49,557 nucleotides of DNA from Spirogloea muscicola (Eukaryota; Streptophyta; Zygnematophyceae; Spirogloeales; Spirogloeaceae): positions 551,481-601,037 of the forward strand of contig WELB01000019.1 in the NCBI GenBank assembly GCA_009602725.1, read 5' to 3'. A model generated the notes under the pieces. That model did no database searches, was not told where the DNA came from, and worked only from the letters and a program-made list of their open reading frames with translations. Position numbers and translations under genes: made by a program. Positions 22,650 through 42,460 of the stretch are shown in pieces (the first letter of the stretch is position 1; each line of letters opens with the position of its first letter).

Positions 22650-22910
22650 TGAATAAGCCGCCGTACACACTTGAGCAAGCCGTGCTATGGCCGCCGCCTC
22701 TGAGTCTCGGCGGAGTGCCTCTCTCCCTGCAGCGAGCTACTCAGACCTGATGTTGCTCACTCGCGGGTACTGAGCTTCCCTCTGCAACGTCGTTTTTGTA
22801 GTGTAGTCCTTTTCCGGCTCCTCCTTCTTTGGCTTTGGACATTGTCCATTCTTTTTGGGCTGGCTTTGCCAGCCCATCTTCTTCATGGGCAAGCACTTTC
22901 TTCTTCTAAC
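22650..22910 (+). mobile_element. LINE-A 3' tail with hairpin module
   Basis: About 22680-22773 encodes, in the LINE-A frame, SRRSASLPAASYSDLMLLT then RGY-stop, nearly identical to the end of the large element at 39142-42324. The UTR has TTTGGACATTGTCCATTCTT followed by the hairpin GGGCTGG-CTTTG-CCAGCCC and CATGGGCAAGC. Upstream coding is lost. Confidence 0.8.
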
Positions 22911-22924
22911 TTAAGAGAGCACTT

Positions 22925-23005
22925 CTCTTCTCAAAGGGAGAAGGGCTCGCCCATTGAGGATAGGGTTGGGAGAAGCGAGCCCAAAAAGGTCTGGACAAAG
23001 TACGA
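22925..23005 (-). repeat. Inverted hairpin module
   Basis: GGGCTCGCCCATTGAGGATAG, GGTTGGGAGAAGCGAGCCC and AAAAAGGTCTGGACAAAG form the reverse complement of the LINE 3'-end module, here facing the forward module at 22848-22896. No coding tail is attached. Confidence 0.65.
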
Positions 23006-23035
23006 GAAGGGGCCAGCTGCATGTTTGTCGTTCTT

Positions 23036-23290
23036 GCGATGACGAGATTCAGCCTGTTTGCAGCGTGTTCAGGCTAATGCTTTGCACCAGAAAGCTGGGC
23101 GAGCTCTAGTTGGTGGCAGAAGGGCTTCGTATCTGACATCTAGTATCCAGGCATGATTAGTGACCTTTATGTTTTGACCCCTGGTTACTGAGCGGGTCAA
23201 TCTGCTGTAGGTTATGTAGGTCTATAGATGTGCTTGCCTTCGTATTTGGCCATTTGGCATTCGTTTGTTTCAACTACACGATATTCTTGG
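23036..23290 (+). mobile_element. LINE-B 3' tail
   Basis: The coding end is homologous to the LINE-A C-terminus: a block with FSVCSVFRLMLCTRKL in one frame, and GACCTTTATGTTTTGACCCC, which encodes the DLYVLTPGY-stop end. The UTR TCAATCTGCTGTAGGTTATG, GATGTGCTTGCCTTCGTATT and GGCCATTTGG is shared with 25085-25200 and 25690-25760, and in reverse with 22021-22140 and 39090-39141. Confidence 0.7.
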
Positions 23291-23460
23291 CCAGGGGAAG
23301 CACTAAGCAGCTCGCTGCACTAAGGAAAACAAGCACGAAGGCTCGCCCATTGAAATAAGGGGCTGGACAAAGCAAGCCCAAAACCGAATGAACAAAGGAC
23401 GAGAAGGGGCCAGGGGAAGCACTAAGAAAAAATCAGCACAAAGAGAAACTGAGTAGCTAC

Positions 23461-23540
23461 GAAGCACTCAGTAACCCCTGCTAAACAACCACAGGTTAGA
23501 GAAACGGGGTTCCTGGAAGCGGGTCCCCTGGCCGGCAGAG
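23461..23540 (-). mobile_element. LINE-E 3' tail, inverted
   Basis: The minus strand reads RFQEPRFSNLWLFSRGY-stop, a family-E form of the shared C-terminus. The UTR continues toward an inverted module at 23335-23420 (GCTCGCCCATTGAAATAAGG, GGCTGGACAAAGCAAGCCC). Its partner on the plus strand begins only about 20-50 bases to the right. Confidence 0.7.
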
Positions 23541-23559
23541 CACAAAGCACAAAGGTGCA

Positions 23560-23735
23560 ACGCCCTCGCTGCTGCCTCAGGCTCCGGCCAGGGGACCCAC
23601 TTCAACGAGCCTAGCCTCTCCAACCTGCGGCTGCTTAGCAGAGGTTACTGAGTGATTCTCCTGTAGCTCTTTGGATGTGTCCATTCTTTTTTGTGCTGGC
23701 TTCTGCCAGCCCCTCTCTTCTATGGGCGAGCTTTT
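23560..23735 (+). mobile_element. LINE-E 3' tail with hairpin module
   Basis: About 23610-23652 encodes EPSLSNLRLLSRGY-stop. Only about 35 bases after the stop comes TGTCCATTCTTTTTTGTGCT, and then the hairpin GCTGG-CTTCT-GCCAGCC with TCTATGGGCGAGC (to 23731). The same arrangement, inverted and nearly identical, is at 33388-33535. This makes the module the very end of family E. Confidence 0.8.
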
Positions 23736-23736
23736 C

Positions 23737-23980
23737 CTGCTCTCCCAGCACGCAGGTGCAGCGCGCGGGCCATAGACTTCTGCAGCGAGACGGCCAAGCG
23801 CACGCGGTACACCTGCGCTAGCGACCCAGCTGCATGGAAGTCCACCAGCTCCCCATGGAAGCGGCGGACGATGGCACAGCGTGAGAGCTGGTTGAGCAGC
23901 TCGAGCCACCGGGCGCCCAACGCCCCGTGCGTGTCGATGGCGAGCGGGAAGCATTCGTCTTCCCGCGGGTGATCTGCGTG
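23737..23980 (-). mobile_element. LINE RLE-domain C-terminal fragment
   Basis: The minus strand encodes GARWLELLNQLSRCAIVRRF, then AAGSLAQVYRVRLAVSLQKS and ARALHLRAGRAGK. It aligns with GSRWLDLLQRLARQAIDRRS and AAGSLAQVFRMRLAVSFQRS of the large LINE. The fragment is cut on both sides and abuts the module at 23690-23735. Confidence 0.75.
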
Positions 23981-23984
23981 TTTG

Positions 23985-24170
23985 AGCTCCTTTGTCAGAT
24001 TTGTTTGTGCTCACCCGTGGGTACTACTGTCATCTTAGGTACCTTAGATTAGGTCTCCGTATTATGTAGCATTGTTTAGTCTGCACTCGACTCTGCCTGA
24101 ACAATGTATTGGCTTGAATTGGCCTCCCTTTCAATTCATGCGCCCCGCGCGCCTTCTCTCTTGGCCCGAG
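23985..24170 (+). mobile_element. LINE-F 3' tail, near-identical copy
   Basis: LSDLFVLTRGY is followed by the same UTR as at 36-200, with one clear difference near the stop (CTACTG against CTAATG). In this copy the stop is displaced by that change. A further partial UTR copy (TTCATGCGCCCCGCGCGCC) lies at 24243-24272. Confidence 0.75.
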
Positions 24171-24449
24171 CGGCGCGGCTACCACATACCCAGCCTCGGT
24201 GGCACACTGGGCTGGGTCGTAGGTTCTGTCCTCTCCTCCATTTCATTTCATGCGCCCCGCGCGCCTTCTCTCTCTCTCGTCTTTGGTTTGTTTCAAATAC
24301 ACGAATCCTCTCTCTTCTCTCTGAGCTGTGCTCACCAGAAGCATCGTGCAGCGGCCTGACGACCTTGCGCGGACTACCCCTCCCTGCCACTAGTTAATGC
24401 GGCCGCGCTTGCTTTCCCTGCCCCAGGGTGCTGGAGGTGGTGACAACTT

Positions 24450-24945
24450 GTGACAACTGACTGCTTTGACTCCGCCAATCCCACCAGATCGGCGTCGTTT
24501 GCAGGGCACGCGGTCGGCCACGCGGCCCGGGGGAAGGAGCGAAAGTATACCGACCACCCGCTTGGCGATGCATTCGCGGCCCTGGCGATTCATGTGCACG
24601 GGGCCTTCGGCAGCCGCTGGCTGCATCTCCTCCAGCGGCTTGCCCGTCAGGCCATTGATCGGCGGCCGGGTCTGCCAGGAGCGCTGCCCAGCTGCAACGC
24701 CGCCGGTTCGCTTGCATGAGTCTTCCGCATGCGCCTGGGGGTATCGCTTCGACGTTCCCTTGCCCACGCCGGCCACGCGCGCAGGCCGTGCTATGGCCGC
24801 CGCCTTCTGGATCTCGGCGGAGTGCCTCGTTCCCTGCAGCCAGCTGTTCCGACCTGATGTTGCTCACTCGCGGGTACTGAGCTTCCCTTTGCATCGTCGT
24901 GTGTTTTCTGCCGTGGGATGTAGTGTAGTCTCATTTCGGCACCTC
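24450..24945 (+). mobile_element. LINE-A 3' fragment (RLE C-terminus and tail)
   Basis: The frame from 24450 reads SANPTRSASFAGHAVGHAAR, KERKYTDHPLGDAFAALAIH and GSRWLHLLQRLARQAIDRRP to about 24718, then continues in another frame to the end SYSDLMLLTRGY-like block ACCTGATGTTGCTCACTCGC at about 24855. It is very close to the large LINE-A. It joins a LINE-B tail at about 24950. Confidence 0.8.
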
Positions 24946-24957
24946 TTTCTTTGGCGA

Positions 24958-25275
24958 CGTCGAGTTTCGGCCTGTTTGCAGCGTGCTCAGGCTAGTGCCT
25001 TGCACCAGAAAGCTGGGCGAGCTCTAGTAGGTGGCAGAAGGGCTCCGTTCCTGGCATCTAGTATTCATGCATTGAGTAGTGACCTTTATGTTTTGACCCG
25101 TGGGCGGGTCAATCTGCTGTAGGTTATGTAGATTTTTAGATGTGCTTGCCTTTGTACCAGGCCATTTGGCCTACATTTCTTTCTAATACACGATCTTTTT
25201 TTGGCACTGGACATTGTCCGTTCTTTTTGGGCTGGCTTTGCCAGCCCCTCTTCTTTATGGGCGAGCAGTTTCTTT
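24958..25275 (+). mobile_element. LINE-B 3' tail with hairpin module
   Basis: This encodes VSACLQRAQASALHQKAGRA, LVGGRRAPFLASSIHALSSD and LYVLTRG, homologous to the LINE-A end (FQRSLAHAVHTRAGRALAAA). The UTR carries GGCCATTTGGCCTACATTTC and TTCTAATACACGATC, then GACATTGTCCGTTCTTTTTG and the hairpin GGGCTGG-CTTTG-CCAGCCC with TTTATGGGCGAGC (25218-25266). Confidence 0.8.
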
Positions 25276-25435
25276 CTGCTGGAGGCCTCCGCCACATTCG
25301 ACACCGGCGTCATGGGGAGCGCGGCGGCCCACATGCGACGGACGAAATCCAAAGAGCCAAAGAAGAAATTACTCGCTCGAAAACGATGCCGAAAACAAAA
25401 GCTACACAGCTAGACACGAGACAACGCAAAGGAAA

Positions 25436-25545
25436 GCTCAGTACCAACGAGTGAGCAGCAGCAAGTCCGAGTGACTCGCAGCCGGAAAAGAGGCACTCCG
25501 CCTAGATCCTGAGGCAGCAGCCATAGCGCGGCCTGCATGCGTGTA
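25436..25545 (-). mobile_element. LINE-A-like 3' tail, inverted
   Basis: The minus strand encodes HAGRAMAAASGSRRSASFPA and ASHSDLLLLTRWY-stop. It serves as an unoccupied reference for the tail at 32679-32830, which has extra sequence inside the same segment. Confidence 0.75.
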
Positions 25546-25684
25546 CACAAGAATTTGTTGGTGGTCAGACGTTCACTGCCATCGCCGTAAATTGGAGTGC
25601 TGTTTCTCCTCCGGGGTGCGTCCAAGAGCGGGCTCCTCGGGAGGGAAGGAAGACTCTTGAATAAGGAACAGCTCTGCCAATCTG

Positions 25685-25790
25685 GGTCAATTTCTGTATG
25701 TTATGTAGGTCTTAAGATGTGCTTGCCTTTGTATTTGGCCATTTGGCCCTCGTTTGTTTTAAAAACACGAAATTCCTCTGCCAACTTATG
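25685..25790 (+). mobile_element. LINE-B 3' UTR fragment
   Basis: GTATGTTATGTAGGTC, GATGTGCTTGCCTTTGTATT and GGCCATTTGGCCCTCGTTTG match the LINE-B UTR. No coding part and no complete module are attached. An inverted, degraded module follows at 25795-25855. Confidence 0.6.
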
Positions 25791-26329
25791 GCAATGGCTG
25801 TAAGAGAAGAAGTGGCTCTCCCAATGGGGGCAAGGGCTGTGAGAGGCCAGCCTGAACAAGGTCCGAAGGGCCGAAAGGCGCCAAAAGCACACAGCTATGC
25901 AAGATACTACAGCAAACGGGAGCAAAGCAAAAGCTGCCTCCTTATGTAAGAGGCACCTTTTGGGTCCAATGATAAGCAACGGCGGGCTTGTCAACATCAG
26001 GGTCCTGCCTACGGCTAATGTCACTAGAAGCTATCATTAGGCCTTCGAATTACTGTTGTGCAAGAGACACAGCTGCAAACAATGCTCTTTGAAGATGGCG
26101 GTGGTCGTGAAGGGCCAGCTCAGAACATGGACAAAGGCTCGAATTGAAGCCTTGGTATGAATGGAGAAGCCACTCAATGGTAAAAGTGGCTGCAATCGAT
26201 GGCAACCAGGACAGCCGCAAGTCTGAATGAGTAGCAGCAGCAATAACGTATTTCCCCAACTAGGGGGCGACTTGCAAAAGGCCCGGTCAACAAGCTTAGA
26301 AGAGGTCCAAGAGCCAGCGCCACAGACAA

Positions 26330-26450
26330 TCCACACATTGCTTGCACGAAATGTGGCGCCCAGCGACATTGACGTCATCACGCCAGGCGGTGGCCCGCCC
26401 ATCATCGCTGATGTGGTGACATTGGACCGACCTCGAGTGCAGCTTGCGCC
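26330..26450 (+). mobile_element. Degraded LINE endonuclease fragment
   Basis: A plus-strand frame reads APSDIDVITPGGGPPIIADV then VTLDRP, which aligns with RRADLVAILPSGGPRIITDV of the RLE domain of the large LINE. The surrounding sequence no longer shows recognisable LINE coding. The fragment is old compared with its neighbours. Confidence 0.5.
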
Positions 26451-27479
26451 ATGGCGCGACGGCCTCTGTTTACTGTCCTTCATTCTGGCCTGCCCTACCC
26501 CATCCACGGGGACGATATCAAATCGGAGTGCAGTGCCGGGGTAAGGACGGCTGGACAGATGCTTTAAGAGGCTAGGCACCTCATCCGGCGGACTGTGCAG
26601 ATAGGTACTCTTGCTTGAGCGTAAGAAGGTGCAAAATTGGAGTCGTGGCGCTAGACAGCCTGGAACTGGTGCAAGAAGCGGCAATGAAGGGCAAGTGTCG
26701 TGGTACACCCTTGGTGGCAGACCATTGGTGACAAGAACCGGGGTTGTGTGAAATACTCTTCTGAGGGCGGAGATGAATCCCTTGAGAACTGGAGTTGCGG
26801 CCAAAATGCCGTGAGCTTGGGGTGCAGGGGTACTGAGAGCCCGGGAGAAGAAAGACTCTTCCAGTAGAGGGCGACGGATGTGAATCGCCAGCCCAAACAT
26901 AGAGAGCCCGGAACGCTCTATACGGAGACTGTGATAAGTCGTGATGACATTTGTTGCTACAGTGAGCTTCGGCCACAATCTCCCAAGTTCTCTTGCTTGG
27001 CCGCGCTCTTGTGCTTCCTAATCCGCTCGTCCTTCTTACACGCCGCCTCCTCTTCGGACCTTTTCCATTACTTTTGAGCCGGCCATTAGCAGCCATCGAC
27101 CCTTTGAACAGTTTCTCTTCCCTTCAGAGGAAGCGCCATATTCATGACCGTGAGCAAGTTGGGAAAGAAGCTCATTCAAGAGGAGGCGTACTCCACGAAA
27201 GGCAAGCGCAGAAGTTGGACATAGGTGATCTCGGTACCGAAACTCACAAACCACAGGGTATCAAAGCTTAGGCTTTCAAGAAAGGCGATGGCTGTAAGAG
27301 GCCAGCCCCAGAGGAATGAACAAGAGTGTGACGAGTACGAGTGAGCGACCAGTGGAGCGGCTTTTTGTTGGGGCAGCACCATTCGGTAGCCCACGGGCAG
27401 CCCAGTCGGTAGCCAAGAGAGGGAGAGAAGGCTTCTTAGCGCTTCCTCTGGCTTCCTCTGGCCCCCTTCTCGTTCTTTG

Positions 27480-27540
27480 TTCATTCTTTTTTGGGCTGGC
27501 TTGTCCAGCCCCTATCCTCAATGGGCGAGCCCTTTCTTCG
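27480..27540 (+). repeat. Stand-alone hairpin module
   Basis: TTCATTCTTTTTTGGGCTGG, CTTGTCCAGCCCCTATCC and TCAATGGGCGAGC form a full module with no LINE coding tail next to it. The preceding TCTGGCCCCCTTCTCGTTCT also precedes the modules at 33100-33140. Confidence 0.7.
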
Positions 27541-27628
27541 AAGGCGCGCGGTGCGCATGGAAATAAAATGAGTATCTTACAAAAGTCCAGGTAACGGGGC
27601 AACGAGCTGGCTAAGGGGGACACTAATA

Positions 27629-27700
27629 TCATCGAGTGATCACATACAAATCTGACAAGCTAAGCTCGGGTGAAAGCCAAGTGGCATAAGATGTCAACGC
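27629..27700 (-). mobile_element. LINE 3' tail, inverted
   Basis: The minus strand ends WLSPELSLSDLYVITR-stop, the shared LINE C-terminus without the last Gly-Tyr. It lies about 190 bases upstream of the dihydropyrimidinase start, in its promoter region. Confidence 0.6.
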
Positions 27701-27890
27701 GGTCACGCCCACGTGGGAGACCAAGAGGACGTTTCTAAAGATCACGGCAGCTGGGCTCGTTGCAAGACAGGCAAGAGCCACTAACATTGACGTCGGTAAT
27801 TGAACGGCCGGCCGCCACGGCCCCAGGGCGCGGCAGTCCAATACCAGCAAGCTGGAAGAGCCCCCCCCCCCGAGCTTCACTAGCGCCGCC

Positions 27891-30800
27891 ATGGCGCCCC
27901 CCCTCCGCCTCCCCAGCGCCGGGCCGCCGCGGCGCGCGCTATCGCTGGCTGCCTGCCTCGCTGCCGCCGTGGCCCTACTCGCGAGCGCCGCGCAGGCCGA
28001 GCAGGTGATCCCCCTTCGGCGCCTCCTGCCCCGCACCGCGCTCTTGGCTCTTGCGCCAACTGTAGGCCTCGTGCACAGCGCGCCCGACGACTTGCGATAA
28101 TGATGGTGATATCGTCGCCGATGCCGAGTGGCTTCAGGGCTTCTGCAGCGGAGCGGGACCGGCCGTCCAGGAGGTGCTGGCCTCGCCCACGGCGGCGTCG
28201 CGGCTCCTCATCCGCGGCGGCACCGTGGTGAATGCGCATGGCCAGCTCGACGCCGACGTGTACGTCGAGGACGGGGTGATCTCCGCCGTCGGCCCGGGCA
28301 TCCAGGTGAGCTTTGCGCACCTCCTGAACACGTAAATCCGGCCGTCGTGGCGACGAGGCCATGGCAATGGGAGTGCTTGCTTCCGTAAGCACCGGTTGGA
28401 AAAGCTGCTAGAAGGCTTGGAATGGCTTCACTCTGCACCGGCTATCACGTCACCTACTGTTCTCAGTGGTGTCGCAGGTGCCGGAGGGCACGAGGCTAAT
28501 AGATGCAGCCGGCAAGTACGTGATGCCAGGTACATTCTCCTCCGCACATTCTCCATGCAGCCGTTGCCTCACACAGCCGGTCACCGGACAGTGTACAAGG
28601 CAGATGGGGCAGTGGAACTTCAGGGTCAGTGACTTTGGGATGCTGCAAATGGCCAACTTGACAAAACCCCTGTTAAGGCTGACTTTTTACTGGCCAAGAA
28701 GTCCTGCTGGAACGTGGCGAGCTTGTCTAATTTGGACCGAGGCGCTCGTGTCAGGCGGGATCGACCCCCACACGCACCTCGACATGCCATTCATGGGGAC
28801 GTCGACCTGCGACGACTTTTACAGCGGCCAGGCGGCTGCCTTGGCCGGCGGCACGACCATGCACATTGACTTTGCCATGCCGATTGATGGTGACGCCCTC
28901 AAGGGCTTTGAAGAGCACAGGAAGAAGGCCAAGAAAGCCATCATGGACTACGGCTTCCACATCGCCATCAACGGCTGGAGCGGCAAGATGAGCCTCGACA
29001 TGGAAGAGCTGGTCAGGCAAGGTGACCCTCCTTTATGATGTGATTGTGTGGAAAGGGTTGAAGAGACTGCAGTCACACCTACAACTAATTCTCTCAGTCA
29101 CCTGCTAAGGCTGGCCCATGATGCACCTTGTGCCCATTGCCACTACTTGGACGACAGGCGTAAACTCGTTCAAGTTCTTCATGGCGTACAAGGGCACCCT
29201 GCAAGTCACTGACGAGCAGCTGCTGGCCGGGTTTCAGAAGTGCAAGGACCTTGGCGCCATTCCTCAGGTGTTTAGCTCCATCTTTGGTCGGCCAGCAGCC
29301 AACCAGTGGCCATTGTTAGCTTGCAGTCGAGAATGTTTTTTCATGCTGCGGTTTTAAGTAGAGTTGAATCTTGTGTTGGGTTAACTCCGATTATATCAAT
29401 CTGCAGGTACATGCAGAAAATGGTGATGCAGTGGTCATGGGACAACAAAGAATGATTGAACTGGGCATCACTGGGCCCGAGGGACACGCTCTTTCTCGAC
29501 CCGCTGTGGTATTCACTGAGAGCATCATCAGACTCTGAGAAACCTTCAAGCCAGCTTACACTCGAGCGAGGACTCCTCTGCCACAGGATCCTGAGCCTGC
29601 CTGTTCTTGCTTAATTTCCTGGTCCATAATTGAGCGGCAGTTTGATACCATGACTTTTCCGCCCTGTTGAGTCTGCAGCTAGAGGGAGAAGCAACGGCTC
29701 GAGCCATTCGCCTGGCCAAGTTTGTGAATGTGCCCCTATATGTGGTCCACGTCATGAGCATTGATGCCTTGGAGGAGGTTGCTAAGGCACGTCTGGCAGG
29801 TGCATAAGTCAGACTTGCACCAATATGATGTTTTGTTAAGCTGACTGCATGTCTAGCCCTGCAAAAAGCTCAGCATCTGCGAGTGCAGATCACATGTGCT
29901 GAAAATACTCCGTACAATTAGAAGGCTTTGCGAAAAATTGAGCTACGAAACACTGCAGGACAACGCGTGATTGGCGAGCTCGTCATCTCTGGTCTTGTCC
30001 TTGACGAGTCGTACATCTGGAACACCGACTTCAAAAAAGCTGCTCAGTATGCTACCAGCAGAGCCCAGCCTGCATTGCTGTAGCAAACTGCTATGCCCCA
30101 ACTATGACTGTCGGCGCTGAGCAGGATAAATCTCTTTTTATGTTCCTTGGCTTCTTGAAACTAGGTATGTGATGAGTCCTCCTATACGTGGAGCTGAACA
30201 TGGCAAAGCACTTCGAGCGGCTTTGGCTGGTGGCATTCTTCAGGTCAGATTCTGGTTTTACTCTTCTGAAGCTCTTCACTGCATTTCCAGTTACCATGGC
30301 ACCTTATTCCCATGTCAGATATATTTCATAAGCACTTTGAAATGCGATACAAGATGAGTCTCTAACTCTTGGTTTTGTGCAGGTAGTGGGGACAGATCAC
30401 TGCCCTTTCAACTCCAGCCAGAAGGCCATGGGAAAAGACGATTTCCGCCTGATTCCCAATGGCGTAAATGGTATTGCTATCTAACACCATCTTTGCCTCT
30501 TTGCCACCGGACAGCTTGTGTAGCTTCTCCACCTTACACATCCCTGACCTATAAATCTGAAGTTCTTGATAATTAAGAATGTATTTGGTACCTCCAATTT
30601 TGGCCACGACCATAATGTGAGCTATCAGCCGTCCATTGGTGTGACCAGGAATTTCTGAGCGCATGATCATTACATGGGACGCTATGGTGGTAAGGGGAAG
30701 GCCTTGCATGTGAGGCATTGTTTCATGTGAAAACTATACAGTCTGTTGTACGTCACGATTACTTGATGTACCTCACCTTCACTCTGCATCGCCTCTCTCA

Positions 30801-31509: not shown

Positions 31510-31620
31510 AGCCATGGGTCCAGGCCAAAGCTGAATGCTGAGCTGCTGCAGCTGTATAAGACCCCTCGATCACCCCACAGGCTGGTGATCAAGTCCAGTG
31601 CAGTTGAACAGCTGACCTAG
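31435..31620 (+). repeat. 93-bp duplication at the dihydropyrimidinase 3' end
   Basis: AAGCTGGATACTGAGCTGCT at 31435 recurs as AAGCTGAATGCTGAGCTGCT at 31528, with GAGCTGTATAGGACCCC against CAGCTGTATAAGACCCC after it. The period is 93 bases (31 codons). The first copy is coding; the second lies in the same frame after the TGA at 31507-31509 and stays open to a TAG at 31618-31620. Confidence 0.75.
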
Positions 31621-32499: not shown

Positions 32500-32640
32500 C
32501 AGTGGCTGTGAGAGGCCATCCAAAAGAATGTAACAAGGTTAGAAAGAGAATTGCTCGCCCACAGAGGGTAGGGGCTGGGAAAGGCCAGCCCAATAAGGTT
32601 TGGAAAACGTCCAAAGAGCCAAAGGGTGCCGGAAAGGAAA
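32500..32640 (-). repeat. Two inverted hairpin modules
   Basis: GTGGCTGTGAGAGGCCATCC (about 32501-32522) and GCTCGCCCACAGAGGGTAGG with GGCTGGGAAAGGCCAGCCC (about 32553-32594) are two consecutive modules in the same inverted sense. They continue into the 3' UTR of the LINE tail at 32679-32830. Confidence 0.65.
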
Positions 32641-32678
32641 CCCACACAGCTAGACACTACACGACCCCAGAAGGAAGC

Positions 32679-32830
32679 TCAGTACCCACAGGTGAGCAGC
32701 AGCAAGTCCGAGTAACTAGCAGCTGGGAAAGAGGAAGGGCTCGCCCATTGAGGATAGGGGCTGGGAAAGCACTCCGTCGAGACCCAGAGGCAGCAGCCAT
32801 AGCGCGGCCTGCGCGCGAGTGGACTGCTTG
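32679..32830 (-). mobile_element. LINE-A-like 3' tail with a module half inserted in its coding part
   Basis: The minus strand reads the LINE-A end: first the block RAGRAMAAASGSRRSA, then, after about 35 foreign bases, FPAASYSDLLLLTCGY-stop. The foreign bases (32731-32768 region) are AGGGCTCGCCCATTGAGGAT plus AGGGGCTGGGAAAG, half of a hairpin module. GCTGGGAAAG occurs on both sides (32722-32731 and 32760-32769). Confidence 0.75.
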
Positions 32831-33034
32831 AGCCAGGGACAGCCAGAAAGGGCAGGAATGCGAAACTACTCTCCGTGACTTCTTTCACTAACGGAGAGTA
32901 GCTCCGTGTTTCTGGACACCTCCCAGCCACCGCCCTCTCATGGAACGTCCTTCTTCTCGTGGACACCTTCCACCCCCTCACCCTTGGTCATTCCGTTTCC
33001 TAGGCTGGCCTCTCACAGCCTCACACTGGAAGAG

Positions 33035-33200
33035 CACACACTGGGCTGGCTTTTCCAGCCCCTATCCTCAATGGGCGAGCAATTACCTCTTACACTTACT
33101 GCGCTTCCCCCGGCCCCCTTCTCGTACTTTGTTCATTCATTTTTGGGTTGGCTTTTCCAGCCCAAATCCTCATTGGGTGCGCCCTTTCTCTCACTATTCC
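33035..33200 (+). repeat. Two direct hairpin modules
   Basis: GGGCTGG-CTTTT-CCAGCCC with CTATCCTCAATGGGCGAGC lies at about 33043-33081. A second, GGGTTGG-CTTTT-CCAGCCC with AAATCCTCATTGGGTGCGCC, lies at about 33145-33184 and is preceded by TTGTTCATTCATTTTTGGGT. Neither has a coding tail. Confidence 0.7.
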
Positions 33201-33387: not shown

Positions 33388-33535
33388 GAAGAAAAAGCTT
33401 GCCCATAGAAGAGAGAGGCTGGCAGAAGCCAGCCAAAAAAGAATGGACAAAATCCAAAGAGCTACAGGAGGAATCACTCAGTAACCTCTGCTAAGCAGCC
33501 GCAGGTCGGAGAGGCTAGGCTCTCCTTCCCTCTCT
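33388..33535 (-). mobile_element. LINE-E 3' tail with hairpin module, inverted
   Basis: The minus strand encodes EPSLSDLRLLSRGY-stop (about 33490-33530). Within about 40 bases it reaches TTTGTCCATTCTTTTTTGGC, GGCTTCTGCCAGCC and TCTATGGGCAAGC (to about 33398). It is nearly identical to 23590-23731 on the plus strand. Short coding ends of this type are all that remains of family E here. Confidence 0.8.
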
Positions 33536-33583
33536 TCATTTCTTCATACACACTCACTCCTCTTACACACTCTCTCTCCCCCT

Positions 33584-33968
<385 letters not shown>

Positions 33969-34079
33969 TCGCTCTGACCGCTCTTGCTCTTCCCCCACCC
34001 AAAAGAGAGATCTTCTACTTCGACCGAGCAGGGGCAATGGCTGACATGCAAGACAAACCTCCCGAAGCGGGCGACGACT

Positions 34080-34205
34080 GTGAACAGAAAGTGGCTCTCT
34101 CAATGGGGGCAAGGGCTGTGATAAGAAAGACACCTCCAGTCGAGGCCAATGGCTGTTGGCCAGCCCAAATGAAGAGACGCCAGCCCAAGAGGAATTGACA
34201 AGGTC
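34080..34205 (-). repeat. Degraded hairpin modules before the RNase T2 gene
   Basis: GTGGCTCTCTCAATGGGGGC with AAGGGCTGTGATAAG, and GGCTGTTGGCCAGCCC with AAGAGGAATTGACAAGG, are inverted, diverged module pieces. They lie within 200-300 bases upstream of the RNase T2 start. Confidence 0.5.
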
Positions 34206-34395
34206 TGGAGGAGCTGGGAAGCGCAAAGCAACCCCCCTCCCTTCTCTCCTCTCCCCCTTCCCACCCTCGCTCCTCCCCGCCCTCCTCCCAGCCCTTGCAT
34301 ACAAATCTCACTCTCCCACCTCATCCCATCCATCATACCTGCAGCCCCGAGCTTTCCATACCGCTGCTCCTCCCCCTCCTCCAGCTGCAGGCTCC

Positions 34396-35966
34396 ATGGC
34401 GGCTGAGGCACTGGCGCAGATGGTGGCGACAACAATGGCAGCCGGTGCCGCCACTGGCGCCGCCAGCTTCGACTTCTTCTACTTCGTGCAACAGTGGCCG
34501 GGGTCGTACTGCGACGGCAACAGGTGCGAACGCTGCCCCACCTGACTCAGCCCCTGCGCCGGCCTGCCTGGACGGTAATTCCATGCCTTGGCCAGGTCGT
34601 CTGTTCTTGATTTCTACAGCATGTATGACATCTGGTGGTGACATTTTCTTCTGACAGGAAGTGCTGCTACAATCCCGACAAGGGCAAGCCCAAGGAGAGT
34701 TCTCCATCCACGGTCTATGGCCCAACTACGCAGACGGCAGCTGGCCCCACGACTGTAATGACAGCCGGAGCTTTGACATATCCGAGGTTTGGTTGCCTCC
34801 ACTTGCAACCCAGAATTGCCTTCGCAACTTCAGTACAAGTACCTTTCTTGTGTGCCCCAGTCGTCGCCTTCCGCTCAGGATAACATCCCCAGATTTAGCC
34901 CAAGAGCATTCGTGTCCAGCTTGGTTGGATGCTTATGGCCAATGGGGGATAAAGGGCTTGCGCTTGGTGTGCTCATGCAGCTTACCATCTATTATTTTCC
35001 AGATTAGTGACCTGGAAGATGACCTGGAGACTTACTGGGACACCTTACATTGCCCCGCTAGTAAGGGTGAAAGCTTCTGGTCGCATGAGTGGAGCAAGCA
35101 CGGGACCTGTGCTGACACCTTAGGGGACGAGCATGCCTACTTCAATGTGAGCAAGATTTGTGTAATATCATCAAGGTCGAACAATTTTCGATCGTGAAGT
35201 ACTCAAAAGTGCACCCACATCTTTCCTAGGCCGTCGAAGAGTGGGGTAAAAAGCGTTCCATTCTGGAGAAATTTTGGAGCCTTTTGTGCCAGAAAGGATG
35301 TCTCGCCTGAGCTATCTCCGATTATCTGCTCAGTTCCTCGTCATTAATGCAGGCTGCACTACAGCTATGGAACAGCACGCTCATCACACAGGCGCTTGCT
35401 GACGCTGGGATCACACCTGGGTAAGCACTCTTTCGTCCTGTATCGCTTCTTGGCCAATTTTTTTATTATCAGCAGCCGCTTCTGTCTTTTGAAGGAGCCT
35501 CAGACAATGTCGGCAAAACACAACAAAAGAGAGCACCTACTTTGCAAAGAGCCAGACAGTTGACGGTCTTCTGAGGTCGGCAAAAGCTCACTCTAGCCCT
35601 ACTCTTATGCAGGGCGAGCTACAATTTCCGTGACATCATGGACATCATAACAAATTATGTAGGCTTCAAGCCAGCAATCGAGTGCAACAACGACCGAGAG
35701 AAGAGGCCCCAGCTGTACCAGGTGCTTGACATTCTCAAGCTCCCTGCCATAAGGTGGCCCAATCACTCGCATGATCCGCGGATAAAACGTGGTGCAAAGT
35801 TTCTTGCTCTGCCTTATTTGTAACAGGCATCTGACGCCTTTAAGCTCCGCACGTTTGGCTGCAGGTCTACATCTGCGTGGATGCAGATGGCGAAACATTG
35901 ATTGATTGCCCCATCTATCCGAAAGTCAGGGCCTGTCCCAAAACTGTGGCATTCCCCTTGTTCTGA
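34396..35966 (+). CDS. RNase T2 family ribonuclease (frameshifted in this sequence)
   Basis: A secreted or vacuolar ribonuclease that cuts RNA through 2',3'-cyclic phosphates. Exons: 34396-34523, 34658-34786, 35003-35146, 35353-35420, 35613-35721 and 35865-35966, about 226 residues if read through. Marks: FVQQWPGSYCDG, KCCYNPDKGKPKE, catalytic block CAS I FSIHGLWPNY, CAS II FWSHEWSKHGTC, and the Cys-rich end VYICVDADGETLIDCP with RACPKTVAF. Both catalytic His blocks are present. Within exon 2, around 34696-34700 (CCAAGGAGAGTTCTCC), one base is missing between KPKE and FSIHG, and the frame resumes one step off. This is either an assembly error or a disabling change. The N-terminus (MAAEALAQMVATTMAAGAAT) is a weak signal peptide. 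Confidence 0.88.
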
Positions 35967-36718
35967 TCAAGATCTGCAACTATCACAGAAGATACTTTCT
36001 AATCATGACAATAAATGTTCGCCTGTGCGTCTCACGATATGCTATATGGCACTGTACATGGATGCTTGCTGAGACCAGCTTGTCATCTGTGAATATTTTG
36101 ATATCTGGGAATTTTGTAGCTAGACTGAGTTATACACCTGCTTCTGAGGTGCAAATCTGTCAAAGCGAGCACACTAAAATGACCTAAGCTGTCTCAATGC
36201 CTTTGTCACCTTCGTCTGCATATAACAACGAATAAACATAAGTATGAAGTCTGAATGTGCTTGATCATGTAAGGCGCATAATAAATGTTTTGAGCCACAT
36301 GCTGGTCCAAAAGTAGCATAAATTGGCAACTTCAAAGTGCAATCAGAACCGTCATCACAGTGATACCTTCCATCGAAGTGTTTCTATGAGGGTGAGAAGG
36401 TAACAGAGGTGACCACGGATGATATGTCCTGGAGCAGTTGGTGCAGACAAGTGCTTAGAAGAGCTGCACTCTAGCTGTATCGTCATTTAATGCAACGAAG
36501 GTGAGGAAGATATGTAAGCACAACTTCATGCCTTAGATTGAACCTCAAAGCAAGCAGAGAACCACATGTAATGAGAGGACAGAAGATGGGGCTGAGGAGA
36601 TCTCAGCTCTTCCGGCAAGGGTTCCAACCTGCGACCTGCTCATTGGACCAGCAAAGGGGGTGTAGAAAGGCTAGAATGCTAAGAACATTACCCACGACAC
36701 ATAAACTCTAAAATCAGT
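35967..36718. other. Intergenic after RNase T2
   Basis: An AT-richer stretch without a convincing exon on either strand. It ends at the twin dyads and the LINE-C fragment. No tRNA or hairpin module was seen. Confidence 0.5.
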
Positions 36719-36756
36719 GTGTTCGCGAGAACACGGGAAAGTGTTCGCGAGAACAC
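36719..36756. repeat. Two identical 16-bp dyads
   Basis: GTGTTCGCGAGAACAC occurs at 36719-36734 and 36741-36756, separated by GGGAAA. In each, GTGTTC pairs with GAACAC around GCGA. The period is 22 bases, about two helix turns. Confidence 0.9.
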
Positions 36757-36879
36757 TTGGCCTTGGCGACAAATCCCATGCAATTGTCTGCGCAATACAG
36801 CAGCGCGATACATCTGCAAATGTATGACCGCGTGGACATCCACAAGTCACTGCAGAAGACTCCTTCGAGCTGCTCAACT

Positions 36880-37625
36880 TAGAATTCTCTGTAGGGCGGA
36901 GTGATGTGTCAGCCCTTCCGGCTAAGATTTGTGTGGGTATACCAGGAGGGGCATGGGGGCCAGCTTCCTGGAGGTACGCAATCAGGCTGCCCTGAAGAAG
37001 CAACTCCGACAAGCTGGGCTCACAGGGAACGGTTACGTACACACACGGCACGACCTTGCCATCGTGCCTGGCGGTGGCCTGTGCACCATCTCCAACGTGG
37101 TGATGAGGACGCATCCAACCGTGGCAACACGTGCTCGTGGGCTAACAAGGCGGGTCCATTCGTCAGCAGAGCTTCCAACTCAAGGATAACAAACGCTTCC
37201 CACCTTAAGAAACGAAATCTTGTCTTACTTGCAGTTGACCTCCACGAGGACTTCTCGGGCGCTGTGCCTCACCTACTCCTTCAGTCTGCACTGCGTGCGG
37301 CGGCTGGCGGCTTGATGCTGGGGGCAGCACAGTAAGCTACCCATTTGTCAGATGCTCGGACTTGCTGGCTTCTTCGCATGGGCCTCTCCCCACCACTGTT
37401 GCAACTCCAGGGATTGAAGTTGCATTTACATGCTGGCCATGCCTTGGTTATGTCCTGCTGCAGAGCATCCTGCTGCAAGTTACTACAATGTGCGGCTGTT
37501 GACCAGGGGTAAATGATGGCTAGTCTTAGCAGCCATGATTCTGTTGAGTGCTCTCCTTTTGCGCTGGGGCTTCTTGACATTAACCTCTCGTCCTTTTTGG
37601 CCGGCCCTTCACGGCCACCGCCTCT
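36880..37625 (+). mobile_element. LINE-C 3' fragment (RLE domain to tail)
   Basis: Frames in succession read GYVHTRHDLAIVPGGGLCTI then SNVVMRTHP (the RLE core, compare TRRADLVAILPSGGPRIITD), LVLLAVDLHEDFSGAVPHLL (compare AALAIDVHGAFGSRWLDLLQ), LHLHAGHALV, and finally SYYNVRLLTRGK-stop at about 37500. The 3' UTR ends in a diverged module, CGTCCTTTTTGGCCGGCCC and TTCACGGCC (about 37588-37620). The coding part needs at least two frame changes, so the copy is dead. Confidence 0.75.
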
Positions 37626-37989
37626 GAGGGAGTGACATTTTTAAAAGGGGATAATGCGTGGAACTACCTGGGCGAGTCCCCACTTCCCAACCTTGGGGCC
37701 TCCAAGACTTGTTGCATTTGTACCGCTTTGGCCCCAGCTTCGCCTTCAAATTTTGACGAGAAAGCCGCGCTTAGGCGGTCGTACTCTGCCCTTATTTGCG
37801 CAATATCGCACTTAGAGATATGGAGACCGCACATCCTTACAAAGTTGAAAAAGTTGTCTGACCCCCAGACACAGACTCGGACTGGTAAGCTGGCACTGTG
37901 GCACAGTCGTTGCTGCCAACTTTGGCAACTGCTGATGGCGTCCTGCCCATCATTCACTGCTCCGCTCTTGTCAATTGTCGGGGCTGGCA

Positions 37990-38290
37990 GTGGAAAAAGC
38001 CTTGCCCTAGCCTCGAAGGGTAGGCGGGGCGGTGACTCTGAAACGCCAGCCCGTGCCAGCTCACGCCTTGCATCTGCATGCAGGCCGTGCCCTGGCTGCT
38101 GCTCCACGTATCGGCAGGGGACTCCTATCTGACTGCTAGTGTTTCCGACTTGCGACTGCTTATTGAGCGGCTTATGAGTTATCCTTCTTTTCCAACGTGC
38201 TCTTAGCTTTCCAATTTCTCTGGAACTTGTCATTCTTTCGTGGGCTGGACCTTCGCTCGCCCTTTAAGAGAGCTACTCCCTCTGACAAGT
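37990..38290 (+). mobile_element. LINE-D 3' tail with module
   Basis: VTLKRQPVPAHALHLHAGRA and LAAAPRIGR read as the LINE end, and SVSDLRLLI follows in a shifted frame at about 38132-38160. The UTR carries CTTGTCATTCTTTCGTGGGC and TGGACCTTCGCTCGCCC at about 38226-38265, a diverged module. Upstream (37630-37990) both strands are open, but I cannot assign them. Confidence 0.6.
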
Positions 38291-38299
38291 GAAGGACAA

Positions 38300-38480
38300 G
38301 GTCTGAACGGGCTGGAAAGCGCGTAAGAACACAGCTACACAAGTGACTACTACGAATGGGTGCTCTTTAGCGCCCAGTCTGCAGCAAGTCGTAGTTGCTT
38401 GCAGCCGGAAAAGTGTCACCTTGGCGAGACCCAGCAGCTGAGGCGCGGCCTTGCTGCAAATGCACTGCAAAACCTGGCAT
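38300..38480 (-). mobile_element. LINE 3' tail, inverted
   Basis: The minus strand reads ALHLQQGRASAAGSRQGDTF then PAASNYDLLQTGR-stop (about 38365-38470), a diverged form of the shared C-terminus. With the next tail it forms another back-to-back pair. Confidence 0.6.
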
Positions 38481-38594
38481 CGCCGGAGCGAGACTGATTC
38501 GGATGCAAAATGAGCAACCCTAGCCTGGCATTCCCTCATTGCCGCTCTTTGACCTACCAGCCGGGTTGGCCTCTCACAGCCACTCTGCTTTGTA

Positions 38595-38910
38595 AGAGCC
38601 GTTCCTGCTTTTTGTATCCGCCTCTCTGTATCCCTGCAGCGGTCCATGGCCCACGCTCTGCATCTGCGAGCTGGCCGTGCTCTCGCTGCGGGCTCTGGCT
38701 TTCGTCAGGGTGATAGCTTCCCGGCAGCTAGTCTGTCGGATCTGAGGCTCCTCACTCGTACTTATTGAGTTATCCATCCTCCCCCTGTTTTACCATTGCA
38801 TCCTCAGGCCCCTTTGTAGCTGCTCACCGCTCTTAGGCCCCTCTGAACCTTTGTGAATTCTTTTTGGGCTGGCTTTTCGCAGCCCTTGCCCCCATTGGGA
38901 GTGCCACTTC
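38595..38910 (+). mobile_element. LINE-G 3' tail with module
   Basis: About 38640-38768 encodes RSMAHALHLRAGRALAAGSG, FRQGDSFPAASLSDLRLLT and RTY-stop. The UTR ends with GTGAATTCTTTTTGGGCTGG, CTTTTCGCAGCCC and CCATTGGGAGTGCC (about 38853-38902). An inverted module piece (GCTCGCCCATTGAGGATAGG) follows at 38973-38997. Confidence 0.75.
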
Positions 38911-39084
38911 TTCTTTTTGGGCTGGCTCCTCACGGCCATTGCCTTACTTGGCAAAAGAAAAAAAGAAGCAAGTGCTCGCCCATTGAGGATAGGGGCTGCA
39001 AAGGACGCTACCAGCCGGGAGTCCTGGCGCGGAGTTGGGCCTGCCCCCATGATTCGCGGCTGCCGGCAGAAATAAGATCATCTA

Positions 39085-39141
39085 AAGGAGAGATCGTGTA
39101 TTAGAAAGAAATGTAGGCCAAATGGCCAGGTACAAAGGCAA
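39085..39141 (-). mobile_element. LINE-B 3' UTR fragment abutting LINE-A
   Basis: GATCGTGTATTAGAAAGAAA, TGTAGGCCAAATGGCCAGG and TACAAAGGCAAGCA form the reverse complement of 25140-25197. It ends directly where LINE-A begins at about 39142. Confidence 0.75.
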
Positions 39142-42100
39142 GCAAAGGCGGCGAGGCCACCGCCGCCGCCTTCACCGGCCTCGCCCGACCCCCCGCGGTG
39201 CCAATACTGCACGAAGCCCTACACCACGCGGTCAGGCCGGACCCTCCATGAATGGGCCTGCGTGTGCAACAACAACCGTGCGGAGCAGGCGCGGGGCGCA
39301 GCTGCTGCAGGTGGCCGCCGGGGCCGGCCAGGCCGGCCAGTCCCACCCGCGCCGTCCCCACCCACGCCTCAGCACTGGCAGTGGCTGGCCGGCCTCGACC
39401 TGGCAGCCGTCCACCGCCAGGCGGCCCTCCCGCTCGTCCGCCACGTTCCCCGCTGGGTGCGTCCACACATTCGCCGCGCGCTTCGCCCGGCGATGCAGCG
39501 GATTGTCCGAGACCATCGGGACGAGGCGGCCTGGAAGCAGTTCCTCCTCTTCCCCCGGCTACTGCTCGGGCGCGTCCCCAACGACGGCCGCCGGCAGGGC
39601 CAGCAGCCCCTCCTGGAGCGCGTCCAGATGTTCGAGGGCGGCCAGTGGGAGGAGCTTCTGGCACGCCACGATGCAGCGGTGGCCGCCTCGGCGGCAGACC
39701 ATGGGGCCACGCGGGCCGCGCCAGCCGGGGCCGCCAATGTCCGCCGGGCGCTACGCTTCGGCCATGCGGGCGAGTTGTCCAGGGCGGTCCAGGCCCTGGA
39801 CGACTCGGTGCTGGCGCCCACCAACGCCGCAACGCGGGCGGCCCTGGACTCCCTGCACCCTCCGGCGCGCAACCCCCTGCCCCCGTGGCTGGACACCTTC
39901 ACCCCGCTGGAGGAGGTGGTCCTCGACGCCGACGCCCTGCGGCAGGCCCTGCAGAGCAGCCGCCGCGCAGCCGCTGGAGGTCCTTCCCACATGCTCACCG
40001 AGCACCTCCGGGAAATCTTCTTGGAGGGGGACGCTGCCGACTTCGCGGCGCTCCACCAGGTGTGCCAGCTCCTAGCTCGCGACCAGGTCCCAGCCAGCGT
40101 TCGGGACGTCCTGTGCGCCAGTACACTGCTGGCGCTCAGCAAGGCCGGCGGAGGGGTCCGGCCCATCGCCATCGGGGAGGTACTCTACCGTCTGGTGGGG
40201 CGCGCACTCTGGCAACAGCACGCGGGGCAGGCCCAAGCACACCTGGCGCCCCAGCAGTTTGGCGCGGGGCTACGGAGCGGCGGCGAGACGGTCGTGCACG
40301 GCGTACGGGCCACCCTGGACCTGCACCCGGAGTGGGTGGCTATGGCAGTCGATGTCCGCAATGCCTTCAATAGCGTTGATCGGGACGTCATTGCGGAGGA
40401 GCTGAGAGAGGCCTTCCCCAGCCTTCTACCCTTCTTCAGGCTGGGGTACGGTCGGCCAAGTGACCTGCTGTGGCGGACGGAGGGGGGAGCGGTGGAGACC
40501 CTCCACTCCACCAGGGGTGCACGTCAAGGGGATCCACTCGCTGGATTCTACTACGCGCTGGCACACCATCGCGCGCTCCAGGCAACGGTCGCGGCTCACC
40601 CTGGCGTGCTGGTGCCGACGTACGCAGATGATACCACTCTGGTGGGACCGCCTGCAGACGTCGTGGCAGCCTTTGCTACCCTCCAGGTGCAGCTGGGCGC
40701 GATCGGCCTGGACATCAGGGCGGACAAGTGCTGTGCCTGGTCCCCGGCAGGTCCCCTGCCAGCCCACCTGGGCCTGCCCGTGGGCTGCCAGACACCGGCC
40801 GAGGGCCTCACTCTCCTCGGCGTCCCCCTGGGCGCACCTGCCTTCGTGGCGGAGCAGCTGCAGGGGCGGCTGCAGGACCACCTCCGGCCGGCGGCCCGCC
40901 TGCACACGCTGAACGACATGCAGCTGGCAACCGCCATGCTGACCCGGTGCATCGCGCAGCGGCCCCACTACCTGGCCCGCACCGTCCTTCCCTCACCGGC
41001 GGTGACGGCAGCGTATGAGGCCTTCGACACCGGCATCATGGCGGCCGCAGCCTCCCTCGTGCAGCACCCGGCGTTCCTCACCACCCAAGCTGCGCAGCTG
41101 CAGGCCAGCCTGCCGATCAGTCGTGGCGGCTTGGGATGCCGCTCAGTTGCCCGCGTCTGTGAGGCGGCCTTCCTGGGAAGCTGGGCGCAGGTGGCCGCCC
41201 CCATGTGTCAGCGGTTCCTCGTGCACGGACAACGCGCCCTGGAGCGGGCGGCAGCCGATGTGGAGACAGGCCAACTCCCCTTCCAAGTCGCCCTCCGCAC
41301 TGCCCGCGACAGGCTCCTGCAGGTCCACCCCAACATGTCCGAGCAGACTGTTCCTTTCCGGCACCTCGCCCACACTCCAGACCTGCGGGCTCAGGCACGC
41401 TTCACGGCGTTGGTCGAGAAGGCGGCCTCCGACCAGGCGGTGGAGCTTCTCCCTCCGTCTGACGTTCGCGGGCGTGCTCGGCTTCTCTCCGCCTCTTCCC
41501 CTGGGGCGGCGGCGTGGCTCCAAGCGCTCCCACTCTATGCCGCACTTACCATGCCCGACGAGGTCTACCGGACGGCGGTGCATCGGCTCTTGGGGCTCCT
41601 CCCTCCCTGCCTTACAGGTGTCACACAGTGCGAGTGCGGCGCCCGGCACGCCGACCCTGCGGAGCTGGCCGCGCACATGCTCCGTTGCGCCCACGGAGGC
41701 GAGAGGACCGCTTCCCATGATCTTTTGCGCGATGGTATGCAGGGGGTGTTCATAGAGGCGGGCTTCAAGGTGGCGGTGGAGTGCTCCTCAGTCATGCCCA
41801 TCCTGCGGGGCGAGGACGGCCGGTCGCACACCCGGCGCGCCGACCTGGTCGCTATCCTGCCCAGCGGCGGTCCCCGCATCATCACTGATGTGGTGACAAC
41901 GGACAGCTACGACTCCGGCAACCCCACCAGGTCGGCGTCGTTTGCAGGGCATGCGGTCGGCCTGGCAGCCCGGGCAAAAGAGAAAAAATATGCCGATCAC
42001 CCGGTCGGTGATGAGTTCGCGGCCCTGGCGATAGATGTTCACGGGGCCTTCGGCAGCCGCTGGCTGGATCTCCTCCAGCGGCTTGCTCGTCAGGCTATTG

Positions 42101-42460
42101 ATCGGCGGTCGGGTCCGCCCGGGGCGCTGCCCGGCTTCAACGCCGCCGGGTCGCTCGCCCAGGTCTTTCGCATGCGCTTGGCGGTATCGTTCCAGCGATC
42201 CCTTGCCCACGCTGTCCACACGCGCGCAGGACGCGCTCTGGCCGCGGCCTCCGGGTCTCGGCGGAGTGCCTCCTTCCCTGCCTCGAGCTACTCGGACCTG
42301 ATGTTGCTCACTCGCGGGTACTGAGCTTCCCCAGTATGTTGTCGTGATTGGTAGAGTAGAGGAGTCCTTCCTCGGCTTCTCATTCTTCGGCTTTGGACAT
42401 TGTCCATTCTTTTTGGGCTGGCTTTGCCAGCCCCTCTTTCTTTATGGGCGAGCCTTCTTC
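39142..42460 (+). mobile_element. Near-complete RLE-type LINE (family A)
   Basis: A non-LTR retrotransposon with one protein, open from about 39142 to TGA 42322-42324 (about 1,060 codons). No ATG is seen in frame at the left end, so it is probably 5' truncated. Order: an N-terminal C2HC finger CQYC..(TLHEWAC) at 39196-39258; a reverse transcriptase with motif A AVDVRNAFNSVD (40345-40380), motif B RGARQGDPL (about 40513), YADD (40621-40632), GLDIRADKC and LLGVPLG; a CCHC knuckle CECGARHADPAELAAHMLRC (41634-41693); a restriction-like endonuclease RRADLVAILPSGGPRIITDV (about 41834-41893) with AKEKKYADH and AIDVHGAFGSRW; and the end SYSDLMLLTRGY. No AP endonuclease is present. The UTR carries GACATTGTCCATTCTTTTTG, the hairpin GGGCTGG-CTTTG-CCAGCCC and TTTATGGGCGAGC (42398-42453). 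Confidence 0.93.
39262..42324 (+). CDS. LINE-A reverse transcriptase / restriction-like endonuclease
   Basis: This is the element's protein. It copies its RNA at a nicked target (target-primed reverse transcription). The restriction-like endonuclease at the C-terminus makes the nick, and the CCHC knuckle before it binds nucleic acid, as in R2-type elements. The RT palm motifs and the RLE Asp residues (RADL and TDVV) are all present, with no frame break, so the protein could be active. The true N-terminus lies further left, because the C2HC finger upstream of 39262 is in the same frame; 39262 is only a GTG inside the frame. Base composition is much more GC-rich than the host introns around it. 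The nearest groups are the RLE-only clades (R2, R4, NeSL, CRE, HERO); which one needs a tree. Confidence 0.9.
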   Translation: MCNNNRAEQARGAAAAGGRRGRPGRPVPPAPSPPTPQHWQWLAGLDLAAVHRQAALPLVRHVPRWVRPHIRRALRPAMQRIVRDHRDEAAWKQFLLFPRLLLGRVPNDGRRQGQQPLLERVQMFEGGQWEELLARHDAAVAASAADHGATRAAPAGAANVRRALRFGHAGELSRAVQALDDSVLAPTNAATRAALDSLHPPARNPLPPWLDTFTPLEEVVLDADALRQALQSSRRAAAGGPSHMLTEHLREIFLEGDAADFAALHQVCQLLARDQVPASVRDVLCASTLLALSKAGGGVRPIAIGEVLYRLVGRALWQQHAGQAQAHLAPQQFGAGLRSGGETVVHGVRATLDLHPEWVAMAVDVRNAFNSVDRDVIAEELREAFPSLLPFFRLGYGRPSDLLWRTEGGAVETLHSTRGARQGDPLAGFYYALAHHRALQATVAAHPGVLVPTYADDTTLVGPPADVVAAFATLQVQLGAIGLDIRADKCCAWSPAGPLPAHLGLPVGCQTPAEGLTLLGVPLGAPAFVAEQLQGRLQDHLRPAARLHTLNDMQLATAMLTRCIAQRPHYLARTVLPSPAVTAAYEAFDTGIMAAAASLVQHPAFLTTQAAQLQASLPISRGGLGCRSVARVCEAAFLGSWAQVAAPMCQRFLVHGQRALERAAADVETGQLPFQVALRTARDRLLQVHPNMSEQTVPFRHLAHTPDLRAQARFTALVEKAASDQAVELLPPSDVRGRARLLSASSPGAAAWLQALPLYAALTMPDEVYRTAVHRLLGLLPPCLTGVTQCECGARHADPAELAAHMLRCAHGGERTASHDLLRDGMQGVFIEAGFKVAVECSSVMPILRGEDGRSHTRRADLVAILPSGGPRIITDVVTTDSYDSGNPTRSASFAGHAVGLAARAKEKKYADHPVGDEFAALAIDVHGAFGSRWLDLLQRLARQAIDRRSGPPGALPGFNAAGSLAQVFRMRLAVSFQRSLAHAVHTRAGRALAAASGSRRSASFPASSYSDLMLLTRGY

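Follow-up and report, generated by a model that had tools for sequence, protein, structure and literature searches.

A hairpin-bearing 3' tail common to several LINE families with restriction-like-endonuclease-type motifs in Spirogloea muscicola

A 49,557-nucleotide stretch of the Spirogloea muscicola genome (hereafter the window; C19:551481-601037 of a 153-Mb, 471-contig genome) contains repeated copies of a hairpin module, which probably serves a clade of long interspersed nuclear elements (LINEs) with restriction-like-endonuclease (RLE)-type motifs as its 3'-terminal recognition tail. Most likely, the tail is the handle where the element's own enzyme would start copying; by analogy with stringent-type LINEs, the enzyme would most likely do so by target-primed reverse transcription. 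In our judgement the module would thus be a stringent-type-like LINE 3' tail, its function assigned by likeness.

Presence of the module and the families that carry it

The module is confirmed as real and beyond chance. Searching for GTCCATTCTTTTTGGGCTGG with up to three mismatches gave eight matches in the window and none in 100 dinucleotide shuffles, while the two-part pattern (GGGCTGG, loop, CAGCCC, spacer and a ATGGGCGAGC-like core) gave 18 matches, 15 of which were accepted (10 on the forward and 5 on the reverse strand, from 206 to 42453, with spacers of 8-10 nt). The other three were discarded: the match at 23358 is an antisense reading, the hairpin at 33000 has another core, and the match at 18575 is due to chance. 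Across the genome, the exact pattern TTTTTGGGCTGG-N4-20-CCAGCCC was found 4826 times, a count that, like those of other large families, may be a lower bound, and its reversed control was found 0 times. The module reported in the earlier note is therefore present on both strands; its range of 22840-42455 indeed holds the module, but accepted copies extend beyond it. With E 1 as the limit, a sequence-only model built from the 15 window copies had 113 matches, spread over 28 of 31 DNA stretches; this set omits L001, L002 and L006, and L005 and L007 overlap. Hairpins with other cores (TTGGGAGTGC, CTGGCCGCGC or TGGAAGAGY-like) also occur in the window, and among hairpins of the 7-bp kind the core follows in 44 of 54, the other 10 including antisense readings and interrupted copies. 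Outside this genome, the tail had no match in Rfam at the gathering threshold; a longer module pattern gave 0 stretches in viral contigs, with no confirmed relative there, and only two in prokaryote genomes, both in bacterial metagenome-assembled contigs and without the T-rich flank.

C-terminal fragments of several LINE families were found by tblastn, and 21 such places were read onward. Seven copies read cleanly from the stop codon into the module (window 39262, 22660, 32848, 23559 and 38610; C1 97433 and 177690), and their C-termini are SDLMLLTRGY, SDLLLLT(R/C)GY, SNLRLLSRGY and SDLRLLTRTY. For family F (L005), the path from stop to module was read by eye. In the remaining places, nested insertions interrupt, the stop is missing, or no recognisable tail is reached. 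The C-terminus is 57% identical to that of family A over 30 residues in family E, 69% over 52 residues in family G and 50% in a copy with a T3-like hairpin (the family letters used here do not map one to one onto those of the earlier note).

The untranslated region (UTR) ahead of the module is near background identity, and the module itself is conserved. When one copy each of five 3'UTR types (A, A-prime, E, F and G) was compared in ten pairs, with F cut one base early, the stop-to-tail UTRs were 8-43% identical (shuffled, 12-32%; both 43% values involve A-prime), while the last 62 nt, the module, were 56-75% identical (shuffled, 30-37%). The proposal that LINE families with differing proteins share this 3' tail is upheld by these comparisons. 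Conserved tails beside near-background UTRs would also be expected if the families had acquired a common tail by recombination, template switching or tail capture, and not by descent with selection. A stack of D6, T2 and T1 tails between one pair of 9-bp CTTCCCCTG direct repeats (L005 2090-2275, also L007), which is either a serial insertion or a chimeric reverse transcript, favours the same explanation. On the other hand, tail subtypes are not the same in all 3'UTR types, the G-type core occurring with SDLRLLTRTY copies and T1 with the others, and an origin by recombination or capture is considered unlikely.

The earlier note had further suggested that the module may be the priming handle of a whole superfamily, which does not hold. 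In a sister clade (SDLY(V/I)LTRGY plus one frameshifted copy), all seven copies first enter a different, D6-type tail (GGCC...GGCC...(T/C)ACACG-like; two calls by exact TACACGA and five by eye), whose commonest form has 748 exact matches in the genome. A third repeat, ending in CCGCGCGCCTTC(TC)n, has by eye the look of a tail from a further family. Counting against this separation, a module follows within 260 nt in three of the seven sister-clade copies, and these modules are read as a separate insertion or an outer element. One family A copy has its 3'UTR interrupted at 24956-25193 by a sister-clade copy, which is flanked by TCTTTCTTTGGC and TCTTTTTTTGGC, a 12-bp duplication with one mismatch by eye. 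The module at 25216-25266, 3' of this nested LINE, belongs to the outer family A copy.

Element ends, truncated copies and clustering

Beyond ATGGGCGAGC the element continues for about 7-9 pyrimidine-rich nt. Past the core, conservation drops at positions 9-10 in both T1 (n=39) and T3 (n=10), at 8-9 in G (n=16) and at about 8 in T2 (n=16); in T1, the main type, the information content is 0.91 bits at position 9 and 0.38 bits at position 10. The bases after the core read (A/C)CTTTCTTC in the T1 consensus and CACTTCTT in the G consensus, and part of this sequence could be a target preference. Thus the last base of the element, which the earlier note had proposed to look for at ATGGGCGAGC, lies beyond it. 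Inserted copies do end just past the module and carry target-site duplications.

Many module copies are 5'-truncated inside the module, down to about 25-35 nt, with target-site duplications. Of 81 copies selected by their core, a choice that favours those whose 3' part is intact, 33 have their breakpoint inside the module. The left and right flanks of these 33 match over a mean of 5.18 bp (permuted, 4.39; none of 5000 permutations reached the observed value), with matches of at least 7 bp, starting 5-10 nt past the core, in 8 copies (2.2 expected, P 0.0002) and of at least 6 bp in 11 (5.4 expected, P 0.004), although some of the matches are low-complexity pyrimidine. Examples of the direct repeats are CTTTACTGG (L010), TACGTTC (L003), CTCCTCGGAAT (L005/L007) and CCAAAGAAG (C1), and, within the window, GAAGGAGAG (33397) and GAAGGC (27530). 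With 5' truncation, a near-constant 3' end and target-site duplication, the copies have the hallmarks of products of target-primed retroposition. Stalling of the reverse transcriptase (RT) at the hairpin was considered and rejected, since by eye the breakpoints spread through and upstream of the hairpin with no clear peak.

Two other explanations bear on these copies. That 33 of the 81 carry nothing but part of the module would fit an independent SINE-like (short interspersed nuclear element) or satellite repeat sitting by chance behind LINE stops; several LINE families, however, end in the module, and its breakpoints vary with no fixed 5' end, so that this explanation is very improbable. Alternatively, the LINE transcript may use the tail as a signal for forming its 3' end or for export, in which case the tail would be conserved for making the RNA end rather than for recognition by the RT. 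In favour of this, the element stops about 7-9 nt past the core, and the listed copies have no poly(A) stretch after it. The 33 partial copies argue otherwise, for they imply that reverse transcription starts there; a double role is still compatible with them, and a signal of this kind in place of RT recognition appears doubtful.

Based on the results presented above, the preferred explanation, a recognition tail, may be laid out as follows. The LINE protein would bind the tail RNA through its T/U-rich flank, 5-7 bp hairpin and TGG-containing core; the pyrimidine end of the tail would then be set at a nick, where target-primed reverse transcription would begin. Because each new copy would begin at the tail and extension would often halt early, thousands of tail copies would gather. 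The tail would be retained by descent because its loss would end mobility, the sister clade keeping its own tail.

The distribution of the tails gives hints that they attract insertions. The window and the C1 stretch together have 23 pairs of neighbouring cores within 300 bp of each other (15 tandem, 5 tail-to-tail and 3 head-to-head), compared with 12.2 +/- 2.5 (largest 20) in 1000 simulations in which each core was jittered by up to 2.5 kb; at 60, 100 and 150 bp, the 4, 7 and 11 core pairs, against 2.8, 4.5 and 6.6 in the simulations, lie inside the simulated range. In at least three inserts (C1 96918, C1 64866 and window 38904), the pyrimidine end is followed by another module's T-run and GGGCTGG. 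It is conceivable, but improbable, that the tail is a shared currency, used interchangeably by the proteins of several RLE-like LINE families, with the pyrimidine end favoured for insertion so that tails stack on tails. In L020 5900-8400, tandem and inverted tails of several types are densely nested within 2.5 kb.

The hairpin as an RNA structure

Of the inner-stem cells in the alignment of the model matches, 91.8% are paired. A tally of stem changes was made on 62 rows, with the L007 duplicates and gapped rows dropped and the innermost pair omitted, several of the changes coming from the same subfamily. One-sided transitions keep the pair via G-U in 16 cases and break it in 5, and double changes leave 3 pairs intact and 1 broken. 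Since the two arms are reverse complements, a C-to-T change on one arm and the mirror G-to-A change share their near context, which allows wobbles and mismatches to be set against each other genome-wide. Pair 4 has 615 wobble, 35 mismatch and 4 double copies; pair 5 has 35 wobble, 22 mismatch (P 0.11) and 0 double copies; and pair 6 has 86 wobble copies against 55 mirror mismatches (P 0.011), one hairpin on C17 being counted in both lists. Pairs 5 and 6 pooled give 121 wobbles against 77 mismatches (P 0.002). At pair 3, for which doubles and not singles were counted, 1 double was found. Wobbles are the more frequent kind at pairs 4, 5 and 6 alike. The stem thus tolerates G-U better than A-C, as expected for an RNA stem, and this points weakly to a folded RNA. 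Folding of six stretches is consistent with this for the three T1 tails (z -4.2, -2.9 and -3.3) and for a 90-nt stretch with two facing hairpins (z -4.8).

Several observations weigh against a folded RNA. In the 62 rows, 11 transversions also break a pair, and changes that break and keep pairs are then equal, 16 to 16. The wobble at pair 4 comes mostly from one subfamily: most of the 100 copies listed among the 615 share the loop CTTTG, so that independent events at this pair are few. For the G-type tail (z -0.73) and a truncated copy (z -0.95), folding is no stronger than in shuffles. Compensatory doubles, whose lack the earlier note had set as grounds for rejection, do not exceed chance at pairs 4 and 5, the two tested in full (4 against 4.5 expected, and 0 against 0.16), and by that rule the stem falls short; these expectations are approximate, as the wild-type count used N{4,20} and the variants N{4,6}.

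An outer helix, TTGTCCAT with ATGGGCGA, was suggested by folding and was rejected. Swapping arms among 55 of 97 hairpin matches (the 42 omitted being antisense readings, chance matches or matches with no recognisable 5' arm or core) gave -7.21 kcal/mol for own arms and -6.92 +/- 0.26 kcal/mol for permuted arms (P 0.13); permutation within types gave P 0.28, a reversed 3' arm -7.45 and a shuffled 3' arm -5.71. With both helices taken together, the covariation score exceeds all but 3 of 500 shuffles, and the number of cells with changes in both arms exceeds all but 9, but the two measures on which relatedness has less influence, pairs with changes in both arms (181/500) and pair types (51/500), do not beat the shuffles. 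A second small palindrome, CCAGTCAATCTGG, lies between hairpin and core in L004 1344-1383, L005 1400-1424 and window 21629-21668.

The family A protein, other features and known LINEs

The family A protein has an RT domain (RVT_1 E 1.4e-13) with YADD at 454 and a single KX2KY, KEKKY at 906-910. According to excerpts of PMC5678591, KX2KY carries the catalytic lysine of RLE LINEs, which also have a CX2-3CX7-8HX4C knuckle and GXW after the fourth strand. In the family A protein that knuckle is not matched, the best candidate, at 790, being CX1CX12HX3C; RRAD at 858-861, followed by ITDVV, has AD where the PD-(D/E)XK core has PD; and GSRW at 931 is one residue longer than GXW. The reading frame is open from 39076, upstream of the listed GTG start, and a CX2CX12HX3C motif lies in the same open frame at about 39199-39261, just upstream of the listed open reading frame (ORF); at about 39144 the frame borders on a D6 tail in antisense orientation. 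No solved structure was matched by sequence up to E 1, and a single-sequence structure model was unusable (mean predicted local distance difference test score, pLDDT, 38.5). On its RT, YADD and KX2KY, as in restriction-like-endonuclease LINEs, the protein may be called RLE-like, and only this term is used because the knuckle spacing and the AD in place of PD deviate and the structure model is of no use. The features are collected in Table 1.

Table 1. Coordinates of LINE and tail features in the window.
Feature	Position	Strand	Remarks
LINE family A ORF	39262..42324	+	listed GTG start; RVT_1 E 1.4e-13, YADD, C-terminal KX2KY
Family A 3'UTR, stop to tail	42325..42394	+	UTR comparison
Family A 3' tail	42395..42462	+	T-rich 5' flank, hairpin, core ATGGGCGAGC, pyrimidine-rich end
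Family A tail hairpin and core	42415-42421 / 42427-42433; core 42444-42453	+	GGGCTGG / CCAGCCC; core ATGGGCGAGC
Tail of 5'-truncated family A copy	22837..22903	+	coding remnant 22660-22770
Tail of family A copy split by nested other-clade LINE	25209..25275	+	coding remnant 24447-24877
Family E tail	23676..23740	+	C-terminus SNLRLLSRGY; stop to tail ~20 nt
Second family E copy	33388..33455	-	direct repeat GAAGGAGAG, 3' side, 15 nt past core
Family G tail	38847..38913	+	C-terminus SDLRLLTRTY; core TTGGGAGTGC, then CACTTCTT
~110-nt 5'-truncated copy within antisense D10 tail	27430..27539	+	direct repeats GAAGGC 27427-27432 / 27540-27545
A-like family tail	32545..32612	-	C-terminus SDLLLLTCGY
Micro-copy, 5'-truncated inside hairpin	32732..32770	-	sits in LINE coding sequence
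Module copy, 5'-truncated	197..254	+	
Module copy, 5'-truncated	21744..21802	+	
Module copy, 5'-truncated	33041..33089	+	
Module copy with G-U pair	33124..33191	+	GGGTTGG
Module copy, decayed stem	22938..23003	-	faces 22837-22903
Module copy, decayed stem	23338..23400	-	GGGCTTG
Module copy with G-type core	25806..25867	-	TTGGGAGAGC
Micro-copy truncated in hairpin	38965..39006	-	
Nested sister-clade LINE, D6 tail	24956..25193	+	SDLYVLTRGY; flanks TCTTTCTTTGGC 24944-24955, TCTTTTTTTGGC 25194-25205; boundaries by eye
Sister-clade LINE fragment, D6-type tail	22028..22556	-	
D10 repeat, third tail type	24095..24161	+	tail reading by eye

A long (CT)n microsatellite at about 33588-33960 adjoins LINE fragments whose tails are likewise pyrimidine-rich. 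The stretch at about 34391-35967 is an island between LINE fragments; by eye it resembles an intron-containing gene, presumably for a homologue of RNase T2.

No report of this tail was recognised in the literature, which is weak evidence with most subscription journals outside the search. A stem-loop common to several LINEs has already been reported for the L2 clade, in which excerpts of PMC4176376 describe four LINEs with a nearly identical stem-loop; new in the present case are its heavy amplification, the RLE-type motifs, the presence of several tail subtypes and the very short inserts. The stem-loop 3' tail, shown experimentally in L2-clade LINEs, is thereby extended to a group with RLE-type motifs. 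Thousands of natural copies, together with families whose tails are related yet distinct, provide material for finding which part the protein reads, and inserts of about 25-100 nt suggest that even reverse transcripts aborted very early can be integrated.

In the same excerpts, the 3'-tail stem-loop of L2-clade LINEs (zebrafish ZfL2-1 and ZfL2-2, eel UnaL2) is required for mobility, stem and loop were read separately in the zebrafish experiments, with the loop as the specifically recognised part, and R2 is noted to have a 3'UTR requirement. Like these stringent LINEs, the present elements have a conserved 3' stem-loop at the element end that is common to several LINEs. Unlike in the L2 clade, a constant stem is combined with a loop that differs inside a single tail type (CTTTT, CTTGT, CTGTT, TTGTT), the motifs are of RLE type, the tail ends in pyrimidines, and recognition is what we infer. 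The clades that encode an RLE are given in part of PMC4640811 as CRE, R2, R4, NeSL and HERO. With such LINEs the present elements share the RT, an upstream zinc-finger-like motif and a C-terminal KX2KY, but the knuckle spacing differs and the insertion sites seen here are dispersed. Zepp and ZeppL of green algae are likewise LINEs that pile up in clusters; the available portion of PMC8226300 places them among the L1 LINEs, whereas the elements described here are RLE-like.

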